Part shown: one piece after another, positions 2,368 to 8,409 of the stretch
Layout of the letters: each line of letters begins with the position of its first letter
How positions within the stretch are numbered: the first letter of the stretch is position 1
IMG/VR virus record: IMGVR_UViG_3300030109_004846
Location: 1-21,421 of that record
DNA: 21,421 nucleotides
Origin: a virus
Direction: 5' to 3' (one strand)
Notes under the pieces: model-generated
What the model was told of the DNA's origin: nothing
The model's input: only the letters and a program-made list of their open reading frames with translations
The model's database searches: none
Made by a program: the position numbers and the translations under genes

Positions 2368-2597
2368 TGGAAGCAATTACAAATATTATTACTGTTGTAA
2401 CATCTATTGTGTGCATCGCAAGCATTGTATGCAGTTTAACAGATACTCCAAAAGACGATGCGTTAATCGGCAGACTTTATAAAATTCTGGAGATTGCAGC
2501 ATTAAACATAGGCAAAGCAAAACAATCCAGCGCAGAGGTAAAGCCAGTAAAGATGACAACAAATGCCAGCGAAAAAACGACAGACAAAAACAGCTAA
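2367..2597 (+). CDS. Small one-helix membrane protein, holin-like candidate, 76 aa
   Basis: The start is taken at ATG 2367, which overlaps the previous stop as TAATG; a longer in-frame start at 2322 would add 15 unlikely residues from inside the upstream gene. The N-terminus is a single hydrophobic segment, residues about 5-24 (IITVVTSIVCIASIVCSL). It is followed by TPKDDALIGRLYKILEIAAL, which I recall from small marine-phage membrane proteins, and a Lys/Thr/Ser-rich polar tail. Size and topology fit a class III-type holin or an accessory lysis membrane protein, but there is no diagnostic motif. It overlaps the next small membrane protein gene by 35 bases. Confidence 0.7.
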   Translation: MEAITNIITVVTSIVCIASIVCSLTDTPKDDALIGRLYKILEIAALNIGKAKQSSAEVKPVKMTTNASEKTTDKNS

Positions 2598-2826
2598 AGC
2601 TGTTAAGCCAACCACACCTACAGCATTGGCTTTAGAAGCGTTAGAACGTATAGCCCATCATGAAAAAGAGTGTGGTGAGCGCTGGGCAGAATGTACTATT
2701 GAACTTAGAGAACTAAAAAATGCAAGCAACGCTCATGCTGCTCGTTGGGAAAAGTTAGCATGGTTAGTAATAGGAACTGTTATCACTACTGCTTTAGCTG
2801 GTTGGATAACAATGATATTGAAGTGA
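2563..2826 (+). CDS. Small C-terminally anchored membrane protein, holin/XhlA-like candidate, 87 aa
   Basis: The first 20 residues are Lys/Thr-rich (MPAKKRQTKTAK). Residues about 23-62 are a charged amphipathic or coiled-coil helix with HHEKECGERW and RWEKLAW, and residues about 64-86 form one hydrophobic helix (WLVIGTVITTALAGWITMIL). A cytoplasmic helical head followed by a single C-terminal anchor recalls the haemolysin/XhlA type of phage holin partner. It overlaps the preceding membrane-protein gene by 35 bases and is followed 3 bases later by a structural gene. Two adjacent small membrane proteins suggest a holin pair or holin/antiholin, which is inference. Confidence 0.7.
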   Translation: MPAKKRQTKTAKAVKPTTPTALALEALERIAHHEKECGERWAECTIELRELKNASNAHAARWEKLAWLVIGTVITTALAGWITMILK

Positions 2827-4719: not shown

Positions 4720-5054
4720 GCAAAATATTACAAGGGCGTTTGCCTTTAGTTTCACCGTACACGAATCAGTTTGTTGATGTAAATACGTTTAATAGATTTG
4801 TTCGTATATTAGAACTTAGCTTAGATGCGGTTGACTTTGACGCAACTCCTCAATACACCGATGAAGAAATAGATCAGTTACAGTTTCCAACAGGAGAAGT
4901 AATCTGGAATTTAACACAAGAAGTTCTTCAGGTTTGGTTAGGCACTCGTTGGGAATATCTTTCTACACCGTCAACTTCTGGTTTAAGTGCCACTGCAACT
5001 CTTGGTACAGTACAGGTAATTGCAAGCGGTAACATTACAGTGGAGATTAGCTAA
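4716..5054 (+). CDS. Small structural-type protein with beta C-terminus, 112 aa
   Basis: Begins in an ATGA overlap with the large structural gene and ends in a TAATG junction with the endolysin gene. The N-terminal half is helical (VDVNTFNRFVRILELSLDAV). The central FPTGEVIWNLTQEVLQVWLG resembles the trimeric beta motif of phage fibre and appendage proteins, in which a line such as 'NTTTNTLQVWDGS' recurs. The C-terminus is a Ser/Thr-rich strand segment (SATATLGTVQVIASGNITVEIS). A minor tail or fibre-attachment component is a reasonable guess; no named family is recognised. Confidence 0.75.
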   Translation: MSKILQGRLPLVSPYTNQFVDVNTFNRFVRILELSLDAVDFDATPQYTDEEIDQLQFPTGEVIWNLTQEVLQVWLGTRWEYLSTPSTSGLSATATLGTVQVIASGNITVEIS

Positions 5055-5509
5055 TGAGTGAAAAGTTAAGTGAACATTTTACTTTAAACGAATGCTGTAG
5101 AAGTGAAACCGCACAACGCCAAGGCATTGATAATACAGCCACTGGTGAAGAACTAGAGAACTTAAAGCGAGTTTTAGAAAATGTAATAGAGCCGGTTAGA
5201 GTACATTATGGAATACCGTTTACTCTTAATAGCGGGTATCGATGCCAAGAATTAAACGCGGCAATAGGGTCAAGCTCTAAAAGTCAGCATTGTAAAGGAC
5301 AAGCAATAGACTTTGAGATACCAGGAGTAGACAACGATAAAGTAGCTCGATGGGTCATAGACAACCTAGATTATGATCAGTTGATTCTTGAGTTTTATGA
5401 TGGAGTAGATCCTAACAGCGGTTGGATTCATGTAAGTTATGTGTCAGCGGGAGAAAATAGAAACCAAGCTCTGGTTTATCATGGCAAGCAATACACACCA
5501 TTTGAATGA
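5054..5509 (+). CDS. Endolysin, peptidase M15 (M15A/M15_3, D-Ala-D-Ala carboxypeptidase-like)
   Basis: A 151-residue zinc peptidase of the M15 fold. It opens with LSEHFTLNECCRSETA, then has NSGYRCQELNAAIGSSSKSQH and CKGQAIDFEIP, giving His79 and Asp86 as zinc ligands, and later LILEFYD and GWIHVSY, giving Glu113 as a probable acid/base and His126 as third zinc ligand. This is the usual length for single-domain phage M15 lysins; there is no signal peptide, so it would need a holin for export. Such enzymes cut peptide cross-links of peptidoglycan. The start forms TAATG with the previous gene and the end forms ATGA with the next. It is the clear lysis enzyme of this window and probably works with the nearby membrane proteins and the spanins. 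Confidence 0.92.
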   Translation: MSEKLSEHFTLNECCRSETAQRQGIDNTATGEELENLKRVLENVIEPVRVHYGIPFTLNSGYRCQELNAAIGSSSKSQHCKGQAIDFEIPGVDNDKVARWVIDNLDYDQLILEFYDGVDPNSGWIHVSYVSAGENRNQALVYHGKQYTPFE

Positions 5510-5733
5510 AAGGCACAATACTAGCCTTTATGTTAATTACGGTTATTGAGGGAAATGTGACTCAAGGTTCAGAACAAATGTTATTTAAGGACATTCACCG
5601 CTGCCAACAGTTTGCGTATTGGATTGAGCATAATTGCAGAGATGTCCGTTGTAGAGGGGGCATCAAACAACACAACATAACGGCTTATTGTAAGCCAGTA
5701 ATGGCTGGAGCCAACCAAAAGTTTTGGGATTAG
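5506..5733 (+). CDS. Small cysteine-rich, probably exported protein, 75 aa
   Basis: Begins in an ATGA overlap with the endolysin gene. Residues 3-14 (GTILAFMLITVI) form a short hydrophobic segment like a signal peptide or anchor, though preceded by only one Lys. The mature part has four cysteines, Cys33, Cys44, Cys49 and Cys62, in a basic context (HNCRDVRCRGG), consistent with two disulfides outside the cytoplasm. I do not recognise the family. Its coupling to the endolysin suggests a part in lysis, superinfection exclusion or antiholin-like control in the periplasm; all three are inference. Confidence 0.72.
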   Translation: MKGTILAFMLITVIEGNVTQGSEQMLFKDIHRCQQFAYWIEHNCRDVRCRGGIKQHNITAYCKPVMAGANQKFWD

Positions 5734-5735
5734 TT

Positions 5736-5843
5736 ATGAGTATATACAGCGGATTATTTTACATTCACGAAGAAAAACGATTTGCTCGATGGGAAGAATA
5801 CATTGAGTTTTATCGACAGCAACGGTTAAAAGAAAATGGCTAA
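5736..5843 (+). CDS. Predicted 35-aa small protein filling the gap before the EF-hand gene
   Basis: ATG 5736 opens 2 bases after the preceding stop and the frame runs to TAA 5841-5843, overlapping the next gene by 8 bases. The product (MSIYSGLFYIHEEKRFARWE, then a charged helix ending in QQRLKENG) is rich in aromatic and charged residues, plausible as an amphipathic helix. It fits the overlap pattern of this operon and fills an otherwise empty 102-base gap. There is no clear ribosome site upstream (only GGGATT), and I know of no family, so it stays tentative. Confidence 0.5.
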   Translation: MSIYSGLFYIHEEKRFARWEEYIEFYRQQRLKENG

Positions 5844-6156
5844 AAAGTTACAAGAAAATTCAGTTTGGGCCAAATATGATATTGACCAGGACGGCACAGT
5901 TTCTGATGAAGAACTAGAACGGGCAACGCAAATGCTCGAATTAGATCTGCGCGAAGAGAAGCAAGATTCACAGCGCAGAATAGCCTGGGTTGCTATGTCT
6001 TCTATGGTTCTTTATTCGTTATTACCCCTTTTGCCTTTCATTCCAGAAGCTCGTTTATCAACCCTAGCCTCCCTAAGTGATATGTTGTTCCTGAGTCAGG
6101 CTTCTATTATAGGTCTTTATTTCGGCGCTACGGCCTATATGTCCCGTAAACCATAG
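5836..6156 (+). CDS. EF-hand membrane protein, putative calcium-responsive holin-like protein
   Basis: A 106-residue protein. Residues 15-26 (DIDQDGTVSDEE) match the 12-residue EF-hand calcium loop at every key position: Asp15, Asp17, Asp19, Gly20, Val22 and Glu26. Flanking sequence can form the two helices, making one hand of a pair. A basic/acidic helix (residues 27-48) leads to two hydrophobic helices at about 49-68 (IAWVAMSSMVLYSLLPLLPF) and 83-102 (MLFLSQASIIGLYFGATAYM). One soluble EF-hand plus a two-helix anchor recalls small marine-phage membrane proteins sometimes annotated as holin-like. It lies between the M15 endolysin and the spanins, so a role in timing lysis is plausible but unproven. 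Confidence 0.8.
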   Translation: MAKKLQENSVWAKYDIDQDGTVSDEELERATQMLELDLREEKQDSQRRIAWVAMSSMVLYSLLPLLPFIPEARLSTLASLSDMLFLSQASIIGLYFGATAYMSRKP

Positions 6157-6165
6157 GGGTTTACC

Positions 6166-6630
6166 ATGATAATTGAATCAGTGGCTGCGGCAGGGGCGAT
6201 CCTCAGCACTATCAGCACCGCCATCAACAAACTCAATGAGGTTGGGGATGGAGCCAGCAAAGCTGTCGAATTAATGCAAGGGTTTTCTGATGCGCTAGAT
6301 TCGTTTGAGCGCGATAAGAAAGATTCGGTTATCAACAACCTCAGCTCACAGGAGCTTTTAAAATTGGAATCCATCAAACACCGCAGGGATCAGTGGGAAA
6401 AGTCGCTTCACGATATGCTGGTCATTCACGATCCAGCCTTGCTTCAAAGATGGGATGACGCTAAAGCAAGACAAAAAGCGAATCATAAACGTCAGATGGA
6501 GGCGATAAGAGCTAGGGCTGCGGCTAGAAAGAAAATGCTTCGGCAAATATATTTAATTATGGGGGTGAGTGCCATCGGCATTCTTTGTGCGTTTATTTTA
6601 ATTGGAGGGGTCATACTGATCTTTAAATAA
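6166..6630 (+). CDS. Helical membrane protein with C-terminal anchor, unknown function, 154 aa
   Basis: The first 20 residues are small and hydrophobic (ESVAAAGAILSTISTAIN). Residues about 25-120 are helical and charged, becoming strongly basic (KARQKANHKRQMEAIRARAA). Residues about 127-153 form a clear transmembrane helix (IYLIMGVSAIGILCAFILIG). A GGGG-type ribosome site lies about 9 bases before the ATG. The gene joins the next by TAATG. Topology would leave a long basic cytoplasmic helix anchored at its C-terminus. It could be a lysis accessory or an inner-membrane factor for virion assembly; I do not recognise a family. Confidence 0.75.
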   Translation: MIIESVAAAGAILSTISTAINKLNEVGDGASKAVELMQGFSDALDSFERDKKDSVINNLSSQELLKLESIKHRRDQWEKSLHDMLVIHDPALLQRWDDAKARQKANHKRQMEAIRARAAARKKMLRQIYLIMGVSAIGILCAFILIGGVILIFK

Positions 6631-6838: not shown

Positions 6839-7054
6839 ATGTACAAAAAAACTCAGTCTCAAACTAAAAAGAAAAAAACCAAATCTAAAGTTAACGAAGC
6901 TGGTAACTACACTAAACCAGCTATGCGTGAAAAATTATTTGAACAGATAAAAGCATCAGGTAAAGGCGCAGCACCTGGCAAATGGTCTGCTCGCAAAGCT
7001 CAGATGTTAGCTAAACAATACAAAGCAAAAGGCGGAGGCTATAGAAATGTTTAA
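6839..7054 (+). CDS. Small very basic protein (GxWSARKAQ type), 71 aa
   Basis: Lysine-rich throughout (MYKKTQSQTKKKKTKSK at the start). Its conserved-looking core NYTKPAMREKLFEQIKASGK and then PGKWSARKAQMLAKQYKAKG is a sequence type I recall from many marine phages and some large algal viruses, always as short basic proteins without known function. It is the first of three consecutive basic genes and overlaps the next by 8 bases. High net positive charge suggests binding to DNA, RNA or anionic membrane, which is inference. It may belong to a DUF5872-like group, but I cannot confirm the number. Confidence 0.78.
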   Translation: MYKKTQSQTKKKKTKSKVNEAGNYTKPAMREKLFEQIKASGKGAAPGKWSARKAQMLAKQYKAKGGGYRNV

Positions 7055-7307
7055 AAAAACCCAAATGTCTTTAAAGAATTGGGGAAAGCAAAACTGGAAA
7101 ACCAAATCAGGAAGACCTTCAACTCAAGGTCCGAATGCATCTGGAGAAAGATACTTACCAGAAAGCGCAATCAAGTCTTTATCCTCTCAAGAGTATTCGG
7201 CGACCAGCAAAAAGAAAAAAGAAGATACCAAAAAGGGGAAGCAGCACAGTTCTCAGCCTAGAAAAATTGCAAAAAAAACCAGATCTCATAGAACTAGGAC
7301 CGCATAA
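7047..7307 (+). CDS. Small very basic protein (GERYLPESAIKSLSS type), 86 aa
   Basis: A GGAGG site at 7034-7038 lies 8 bases before the ATG, which decides the start. The core SLKNWGKQNWKTKSGRPS, ASGERYLPESAIKSLSSQEY, and the Lys-rich KKGKQHSSQPRKIAKKTRSH match a type of small basic protein found repeatedly in marine phages and other aquatic viruses; function is unknown. The start MFKKTQ mirrors MYKKTQ in the preceding protein, suggesting either shared ancestry of the N-termini or convergence. Ends in TAATG with the third basic gene. Two alternative-frame ORFs across this gene are by-products of the A-rich composition. Confidence 0.8.
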   Translation: MFKKTQMSLKNWGKQNWKTKSGRPSTQGPNASGERYLPESAIKSLSSQEYSATSKKKKEDTKKGKQHSSQPRKIAKKTRSHRTRTA

Positions 7308-7648
7308 TGAGAAGAAGAACAGCCTCAGACCCAGATTCAAAAAGAGATCCAAGACTAGCTAGAGCTGGCGTTAGTGGATTTAATCAACCTAAACGAACTC
7401 CAAAACACCCTACTAAATCTCATATTGTTGTAGCTAAACAAGGGGATAAAATAAAGACCATTAGATTTGGGCAGCAAGGTGTAAAGACAAATCAAACAGT
7501 TGGCCAGCGAAAAGCATTTAAATCTCGCCATGCTAAAAACATAGCCAGAGGTAAACTGTCAGCAGCTTATTGGGCAGACAAAGTTAAATGGAGCCCAAGC
7601 AAAACCCAGTCGCCCTCGAGAAAATGGAAGAAAGGAACGGTTGCTTAA
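7307..7648 (+). CDS. Small basic phage protein (DUF6321-like), 113 aa
   Basis: Basic throughout, opening with Arg residues (MRRRTASDPDSKRDPRLARA). The segment HIVVAKQGDKIKTIRFGQQG, followed by RKAFKSRHAKNIARGKLSAA and YWADKVKW, resembles the 'RFG..... R..F.ARH......SA.YW...W' pattern of a widespread phage and virus protein family that I know as DUF6321, with moderate certainty. Function is unknown. The gene begins with TAATG and ends just before the i-spanin. As third of the basic cluster it may act with the previous two. Confidence 0.78.
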   Translation: MRRRTASDPDSKRDPRLARAGVSGFNQPKRTPKHPTKSHIVVAKQGDKIKTIRFGQQGVKTNQTVGQRKAFKSRHAKNIARGKLSAAYWADKVKWSPSKTQSPSRKWKKGTVA

Positions 7649-7652
7649 CGAA

Positions 7653-8069
7653 ATGGGATTTAAACTAAGCATAGGATTAGGGATCGCTTTGGTTGCTTTA
7701 TCGGGAGCATTTAAGCTGTATTACGATAAGTCACAAGCTGAACTGGAATCGTTTCAAATAAGGTTAGAACAATCCATTCAGAATCAAAAGACTCTTGAAA
7801 GCACCATTCAAAAGCAAAATGACAACCTAAACGAAACCATCGAGAATCAAAAACTTATGGTTGCTCAGGTTGAGCGACTATCTAAAGAAAACCAAGACGC
7901 TCAAGAAGAGGTCATTGATATTAGAAAAAAGTGGTCGAAGCACAACTTAAATGTAATATCTATGAAAAAGCCTGGGTTGATAGAGAAAATTATTAATAAA
8001 GGTACTGCAAAAGTAGGAGAAGAACTTGAACAAATCACTAATCCTGATAGGACTGTTAGTTCTATTTAG
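7653..8069 (+). CDS. i-spanin (Rz-like inner-membrane spanin)
   Basis: I take ATG 7653, giving 138 residues; an upstream TTG at 7641 lies only a few bases from the AAGGAA site and inside the previous gene. Residues about 4-23 are one transmembrane helix (KLSIGLGIALVALSGAFKLY). A long coiled coil follows, about 27-90, rich in Gln, Glu and Asn, and then the C-terminal segment ISMKKPGLIEKIINKGTAKV typical of marine-phage i-spanins. The gene overlaps the following lipoprotein gene by 44 bases in another frame. That arrangement, with TM plus periplasmic coiled coil then lipoprotein, is the Rz/Rz1 type. The complex would span the periplasm and fuse inner and outer membranes after the endolysin acts, so the host is Gram-negative. 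Confidence 0.85.
   Translation: MGFKLSIGLGIALVALSGAFKLYYDKSQAELESFQIRLEQSIQNQKTLESTIQKQNDNLNETIENQKLMVAQVERLSKENQDAQEEVIDIRKKWSKHNLNVISMKKPGLIEKIINKGTAKVGEELEQITNPDRTVSSI
8015..8020 (+). promoter_or_regulatory. Ribosome binding site AGGAGA deciding the TTG start of the o-spanin
   Basis: AGGAGA sits 5 bases before TTG 8026, inside the i-spanin gene. It is among the better ribosome sites in the window and supports initiation at a non-ATG codon. Confidence 0.75.
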
Positions 8070-8409
8070 TGGATGTTCAATGCTTGGGGGTGGTAAACGC
8101 GACATCCCTGAAGTAAAGCCTGTAGAGGTGGTGACTGTGGTTAAAGAAGCACCCATGTATCACCCTCCTTTACCCGCTGCTATCAATGCATTACCAGTAG
8201 AGTGGAAGGTGCTAACGCCAGCCACTATGGAAGAGTATTTAAATGATTTGAGTGAGGGTAATGCACCTATGAATGTATACTATAGCCTCACTACAAAAGG
8301 GTATGAGAACCTTAGTAACAACATGGCAGATATCAAAAGATACCTGCGACAAGTCTTATCAATAGTGGATTATTACAAGAAATCCGATGAGACTACAAAG
8401 GAGAAATAG
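8026..8409 (+). CDS. o-spanin (Rz1-like outer-membrane lipoprotein), TTG start
   Basis: A 127-residue protein starting at TTG 8026 with a strong ribosome site 5 bases upstream. NKSLILIGLLVLFSGC is a lipoprotein signal; Cys17 would be lipidated, with FSG before it (Phe at -3 is less common but tolerated). The mature part begins with Gly/Lys/Pro-rich sequence (KRDIPEVKPVEVV), then a conserved-looking region around LTTKGYENLSNNMADIKRYL, as in marine-phage proteins paired with Rz-like genes. It is longer than lambda Rz1, and its end is helical. It overlaps the i-spanin by 44 bases in a shifted frame. Outer-membrane partner of the spanin complex is the best call. Confidence 0.82.
   Translation: MNKSLILIGLLVLFSGCSMLGGGKRDIPEVKPVEVVTVVKEAPMYHPPLPAAINALPVEWKVLTPATMEEYLNDLSEGNAPMNVYYSLTTKGYENLSNNMADIKRYLRQVLSIVDYYKKSDETTKEK
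8398..8403 (+). promoter_or_regulatory. Strong ribosome binding site AAGGAG before a 13-codon leader ORF
   Basis: AAGGAG lies at the very end of the o-spanin gene and 10 bases before ATG 8414. It is far better placed for the short leader ORF than for the 600-aa gene at 8455, which has no good site of its own. Confidence 0.7.

Follow-up and report, generated by a model that had tools for sequence, protein, structure and literature searches.

A family of aquatic phage proteins joining a conserved EF-hand to a two-helix membrane hairpin

We describe a large and hitherto unannotated family of small membrane proteins that is found in many aquatic phages of cultured and uncultured kinds. In one of its two clades a hairpin of two transmembrane (TM) helices is preceded by a single EF-hand, which in the protein studied here is strongly predicted from its sequence to bind Ca2+. 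We infer a role in lysis for the family, the direct support for which is positional. The terms 'freshwater' and 'aquatic' rest on the records of the isolated phages, the contigs carrying no habitat label. The window is the whole analyzed stretch of 21,421 nucleotides from a virus (IMG/VR record IMGVR_UViG_3300030109_004846, positions 1 to 21,421).

The EF-hand protein and its neighbors in the window

The features of the gene under study and its surroundings are as follows.

2563..2826, + strand: phrog_937 ('hemolysin', XhlA-like) protein with one C-terminal TM (PHROG match, hydropathy)
5054..5509, + strand: endolysin, Peptidase_M15_3 (Pfam E 7e-20; phrog_894 endolysin E 6e-42)
5506..5733, + strand: 75-aa protein with an N-terminal hydrophobic segment (sequence, hydropathy)
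5736..5843, + strand: 35-aa ORF with an 8-base overlap with the start of the EF-hand gene (read from sequence)
5836..6156, + strand: EF-hand and two-TM hairpin protein, the object of study (ATG to TAG, 106 aa)
5878..5913, + strand: canonical 12-residue EF-hand calcium loop DIDQDGTVSDEE, residues 15-26 (sequence; invariance of positions 1, 6 and 12; codon test)
5905..5982, + strand: charged exit helix of the EF-hand, residues 24-49 (AlphaFold2 helix 24-65, conservation, spacing)
5983..6042, + strand: TM1, about residues 50-69 (hydropathy; AlphaFold2 model)
6067..6138, + strand: TM2, about residues 78-101 (hydropathy; AlphaFold2 model)
6166..6630, + strand: phrog_1544-like coiled-coil protein with a C-terminal TM (PHROG match, hydropathy)
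7641..8069, + strand: Rz-like inner-membrane spanin (phrog_739, E 1e-12)
8026..8409, + strand: Rz1-like spanin lipoprotein (phrog_812, E 6e-14)

A preliminary description of this DNA had claimed that the ORF at 5836-6156 carries one canonical calcium loop on a two-TM membrane anchor and lies between an endolysin and spanins, and the architecture and the location both hold. The loop (D15-I-D-Q-D-G-T-V-S-D-E-E26) is followed by two segments that hydropathy marks as hydrophobic (about residues 51-69 and 76-94), and the gene is flanked by the M15 endolysin (5054-5509) and the Rz/Rz1 pair (7641-8409). Translational coupling of the EF-hand gene with the overlapping 35-aa ORF is possible, judging from the overlap. 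The phrog_937 XhlA-like protein is a possible holin partner. In many freshwater cassettes a protein similar to the phrog_1544-like one is encoded immediately before the family gene; coiled-coil proteins of the phrog_1544 / 32327 type with a C-terminal TM repeatedly adjoin the EF-hand gene, also in locus L082 (5517-5996), and may be partners of the EF-hand protein.

Elsewhere in the window, three consecutive small Lys/Arg-rich proteins (71, 86 and 113 aa) without a Pfam match are encoded at 6839-7648, and similar small basic proteins are repeatedly encoded close to the family gene at other loci and in Roseobacter CRP phages. A repeat protein of tail type with a Peptidase_S74 intramolecular chaperone at its end is encoded at 94-1089, and a 2OG-Fe(II) oxygenase of the 2OG-FeII_Oxy_5 family at 1449-2153.

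The AlphaFold2 model of the window protein (mean pLDDT 80.5, the part ahead of residue 20 being less certain) contains helices at residues 10-14, 24-65 and 71-103. The first two flank the loop on either side, the entry helix (10-14) being of low confidence, and the exit helix is modelled as continuous with TM1. At the membrane edge this helix carries a conserved Q46-R47-x-M/I-A-W motif, which is separated from E12 of the loop by 19 residues in 323 relatives and by 21 in 86. TM2 has a pattern of small residues at positions 93 (A/G/V), 97 (G/A) and 100 (A), i.e. A/G-x3-G/A-x2-A. Two hydrophobic segments are predicted by hydropathy in 419 of 423 EF-bearing members. The C-terminal tail of these members has 2.5 K/R against 0.8 in the loop between the TMs, and the N-flank of EF-less relatives has 4.8, so that positive-inside counts favor an N-in/C-in topology; with both termini cytoplasmic, the EF loop would face the cytoplasm. 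Foldseek searches of viral and PDB libraries yielded nothing significant, an expected outcome with a two-helix hairpin, which is a common structure. A Pfam match of the window protein to the VIT1 iron transporter was rejected as a weak helical similarity under threshold.

Conservation of the calcium loop

The main conservation test was run on 423 loci of the EF-bearing clade without a loop filter. The 12-residue pattern (D, N or S ligands at positions 1, 3 and 5, G at 6, a hydrophobic residue at 8 and E at 12) was present in 419 of them; of the four deviating loci, two are cut by a contig end within the loop, one is cut before the loop and one has an N base. By weighted entropy over all columns, D1, G6 and E12 rank as the top three, Q46 is fourth and D5 fifth. 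Loop positions 2, 7, 10 and 11 vary freely, which, judged from the alignment, is the mark of a constraint on ligands and not on the backbone. Position 12 is E and never D in the EF-bearing family, and this fits Ca2+ rather than Mg2+. The six key codons of the loop, compared across 69 distinct close relatives, contain 10 synonymous variants and a single amino-acid variant, D3N; asparagine at position 3 is still a legal ligand.

The family profile matched solved calmodulin-type EF-hand structures over positions 4-48 (E 1.8e-10 to about 3e-8); its 92 diverse members had been picked with the loop filter, so that loop invariance within this profile is not independent evidence. The family resembles calmodulin-type EF-hands in possessing a half-pair with E-helix, loop and the start of the F-helix, and differs from them in having a single hand, with the F-helix modelled as running into the membrane helix. 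Each of 305 distinct loop-bearing proteins has one loop, in agreement with the preliminary description, so that the pairing within a chain that is typical of EF-hands, if not strictly defining, was found in none of these 305; pairing between chains is possible.

The view that an EF-like motif arose by chance in an acidic linker can draw on the Pfam EF-hand score of the window sequence taken alone, which is sub-threshold (19.5 bits against a curated cut-off of 25.4, E 6.6e-4), as expected of a lone half-pair. It is already refuted by the family-wide invariance, the codon data, the calmodulin match and the rarity of the pattern in the background, where it occurs in 5 of 4,804 neighboring proteins, and its probability is negligible. 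Ligand conservation, codon variation and the profile match thus support the earlier proposal of a real EF-hand and point to its selective maintenance.

Relatives and the EF-less sister clade

One scan of IMG/VR gave 539 relatives, and additional seeds from isolated phages gave the family set of 506 members, the window protein included; these counts depend on the seeds. EF-bearing relatives are encoded by the Roseobacter phages CRP-1, -9, -207, -345 and -810, Limnohabitans phage DC31, the Sinorhizobium phages phiM12, phiM7, phiM19 and phiN3, Pelagibacter phage HTVC008M and the Methylophilales phages Melnitz. EF-less ones are found in Limnohabitans phage DC33, contig MW202520 and Stenotrophomonas phage DLP_6. 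All of these named relatives are annotated as hypothetical or carry no annotation, and open-access literature on EF-hands with holin, holin-like, pelagiphage or cyanophage contained no description of the family. Among PHROGs the window protein matches 27150 alone (E 9e-10), a group whose function is not annotated. This group, which includes phiM12 gene 165, has the same EF-hand and two-TM layout, with the loop DLDGDGKIVEHE; the N-terminal tail of the phiM12 protein is longer and its linker shorter than in the window protein, and its gene is located in a hub cluster instead of a lysis cassette. The family gene is single-copy in each of the seven longer related records searched. A profile scan of MAG and genome contigs gave 9 loci, one of them assigned to a MAG labelled Euryarchaeota. 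MAG contigs labelled Muricauda (L339) and Euryarchaeota (L337) contain the family gene within a T4-like phage gene order and are probably misbinned phage contigs.

The EF-less clade (DRWKNRRRMAW proteins and the protein of phage DLP_6; PHROG 22774 and 14936) retains the hairpin and lacks the loop. Its hairpin is homologous to that of the EF-bearing clade (hhalign probability 97%, E 3e-11), from which it differs by the absence of the EF-hand, a strongly basic N-terminus and a separate, well-supported branch. The two clades part at one branch of the hairpin-only tree (SH-aLRT 97), with only one truncated sequence and one with N as EF-less rows inside the EF side; the tree is built on few columns and has long branches, and its finer detail is unsure. 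A single well-supported split suggests an old single gain or loss of the EF-hand and not erosion of the loop. Most EF-less genes are still located in lysis cassettes, in the order one-TM protein, hairpin, Rz, endolysin, with Rz directly downstream in 34 loci. Since this clade keeps the hairpin in the lysis position without an EF-hand, calcium cannot be needed for the basic job of the hairpin. Homologues that lack the loop residues and keep the rest, which the preliminary description had held to speak against a calcium function, therefore exist as a sister clade; the EF clade itself keeps the loop (419/423).

Several EF-less loci have a second, 70-aa hairpin protein. In some cassettes a second two-TM protein of 70-80 aa is encoded near Rz and the endolysin (L346 5599-5811, L374 5599-5811, L165 5330-5572), with the pattern GLFD..VDN.EIFKLI.PAF..IVG.F.G and no PHROG annotation. 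A similarity of the EF-less clade to SLATT/DUF4231 two-TM effectors was under threshold (E 0.02). The DC33 record (PQ492659, L336) is classified as Inoviridae, yet it spans 39 kb and encodes an Rz-like protein and an M15 endolysin; the label looks like a taxonomic error.

Genomic context

Gene context was surveyed in 279 EF-bearing loci with at least three genes per side using strict models; the contig gene calls, neighbor models and hydropathy cut-off were made in this analysis and are crude. An endolysin or Rz gene occurs within four genes in 176 loci, 35 loci, all T4-like, belong to a T4-like hub cluster not beside an endolysin, and 68 were assigned to neither context. At 85% non-redundancy (65 loci), the corresponding numbers are 24 lysis, 17 T4-like hub and 24 neither. 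The strict lysis counts exclude the 'lysozyme' of CRP-207 and of its relatives, since that assignment finds no confirmation in PHROGs. The location in a lysis region, as originally proposed, is hence recurrent in the family and not universal.

Within the larger EF group, 57 loci have the family gene followed by Rz and then by an M15/VanY endolysin. The common freshwater order is an XhlA-like one-TM protein, a phrog_1544-like or other one-TM protein, the family gene, Rz and the M15 endolysin. In 28 of 31 EF-bearing lysis loci no other small same-strand hairpin protein is encoded within four genes, a count made at 85% non-redundancy with a loose lysis definition and a crude hydropathy cut, the phrog_1544-like and spanin proteins being set aside. 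In CRP-810 the family gene lies directly beside a recognized 3-TM holin (phrog_3427, E 7e-33), so that in this phage the family protein can at most be an additional membrane lysis protein.

In T4-like phages the family gene follows gp26 and gp51 and precedes the tape measure. HTVC008M, Melnitz, phiM12 and many contigs have the gene between gp51 and the tape-measure gene, EF-less DLP_6 has it in the same slot, and gp51 at -1 and/or the tape measure at +1 were found in 70 loci. This T4-like setting makes a tail-associated or hub-assembly membrane protein the main rival, in which case the lysis-cassette position would be a late-operon coincidence. Such a protein might anchor assembly of the hub and tape measure at the membrane, or be ejected with the tape measure and help DNA to cross the inner membrane, sensing Ca2+ at injection. 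In T4 itself, the hub protein gene 28 directly precedes gene 29, and gp28, which has been discussed as a hub component (PMC3004832), is encoded, like the T4-like family members, after hub genes and before the tape-measure gene; Pfam scans of family proteins gave no match to the gp28 Pfam family. However, most loci adjoin endolysin and Rz genes, and the window gene itself is not in a hub/tape-measure cluster. In the T4-like cyanophages P-SSM2 and S-RIM8 gp51 is directly followed by the next large gene, which shows that the family gene is not a universal hub part. Moreover, the hairpin tree needs several context switches, eight by parsimony, of which well-supported branches alone force three for the EF-bearing T4 group; the EF-hand has thus remained attached to the hairpin as the gene shifted between lysis and hub settings. 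Taken together with its variants, we consider a tail or hub role rather unlikely.

A small two-TM protein encoded beside the tape-measure gene in T4-like phages could also serve superinfection exclusion or modify the host membrane, blocking entry or tape-measure function of competing phages, and other phages are known to encode small membrane proteins for exclusion. The recurrent place directly before Rz and the endolysin in late operons is typical of lysis genes and not of early exclusion genes, and we regard exclusion as improbable, more so than a tail or hub role.

A candidate lysis protein and its possible response to calcium

The simplest common role for the family is a late inner-membrane lysis protein, either a holin or a holin partner, with the EF-hand as a regulatory addition that was gained or lost once. 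We give nearly even chances to the fuller proposal of a holin-class or holin-partner protein whose triggering is tuned by a cytoplasmic EF-hand.

The family has traits of class II holins, being small, with two TM helices, and encoded beside endolysin or spanins in the 176 loci above. The phage 21 S protein and PBSX XhlA/XhlB represent two-TM hairpin holin systems. The family resembles these and Mycobacterium phage LysF1a/LysF1b in forming a small two-TM hairpin, predicted to be N-in/C-in, near endolysin and Rz, often with a one-TM XhlA-like neighbor as in two-component holin systems, and differs in having no sequence homology to them above threshold. To our knowledge, an EF-hand is not described in class II or two-component holin systems. 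No Pfam, NCBIfam or PHROG holin matched the family above threshold, none of the matched PHROGs is annotated as holin, and a weak Phage_holin_3_6 signal was obtained for 15 of 92 members (best E 9e-5). LysF1a is a two-TMD N-in-C-in holin-like protein that acts with a one-TMD partner (PMC13056207). An EF-hand-like calcium-binding site in a phage lysis protein is described for the endolysin LysGH15, which unlike the family is a soluble CHAP enzyme whose activity is supported by calcium (PMC4022735).

For the family protein, we infer Ca2+ binding, oligomerization and gating of the hairpin. A two-TM hairpin with cytoplasmic N and C termini would oligomerize in the inner membrane, its single cytoplasmic EF-hand connected by an exit helix that runs straight into TM1. 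While the membrane is intact, free cytoplasmic Ca2+ would be low and the hand empty; a first leak or depolarization would let Ca2+ enter and fill the hand, perhaps pairing the hands of neighboring subunits. The filled hand would then move the TM1 helix, and this movement might drive an all-or-none conversion to a lesion, or lock or release a holin partner.

Alternatively, the EF-hand may be a structural staple in a protein that still acts at the membrane or in lysis, and not a sensor, constitutively bound Ca2+/Mg2+ stiffening the exit helix or dimerizing the protein. Strict ligand conservation is equally expected of such a staple, and single unpaired EF-hands often bind weakly and may serve oligomerization. 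On the other hand, the invariant E12 favors Ca2+, the predicted topology puts the loop in the cytoplasm, in which this ion is scarce, and the EF-less clade manages without a staple. We judge this alternative to have a low probability.

Implications for phage lysis

The timing of lysis by holins, and what holins sense, is a long-standing open question. The broadest interpretation of the family is that calcium-gated lysis proteins are widespread in aquatic phages of very different types, with a holin-type hairpin triggered by Ca2+ entering through the first lesion and an EF-hand helix continuous with TM1; this is a speculative scenario with a small likelihood. For the Kyanoviridae phages that infect SAR11 and OM43 (HTVC008M and Melnitz), the family would supply a candidate for a membrane protein acting in lysis. 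The HTVC008M genome record contains no annotated holin, and for Melnitz a curli pore was proposed by its authors as a possible pinholin (PMC9004378). The phages of Limnohabitans sp. DCL3 provide a natural comparison, DC31 having the EF-hand form and DC33 the EF-less form. More generally, the family places a specific and easily mutated candidate sensor on a membrane protein of the lysis cassette in both cultured and uncultured aquatic phages.
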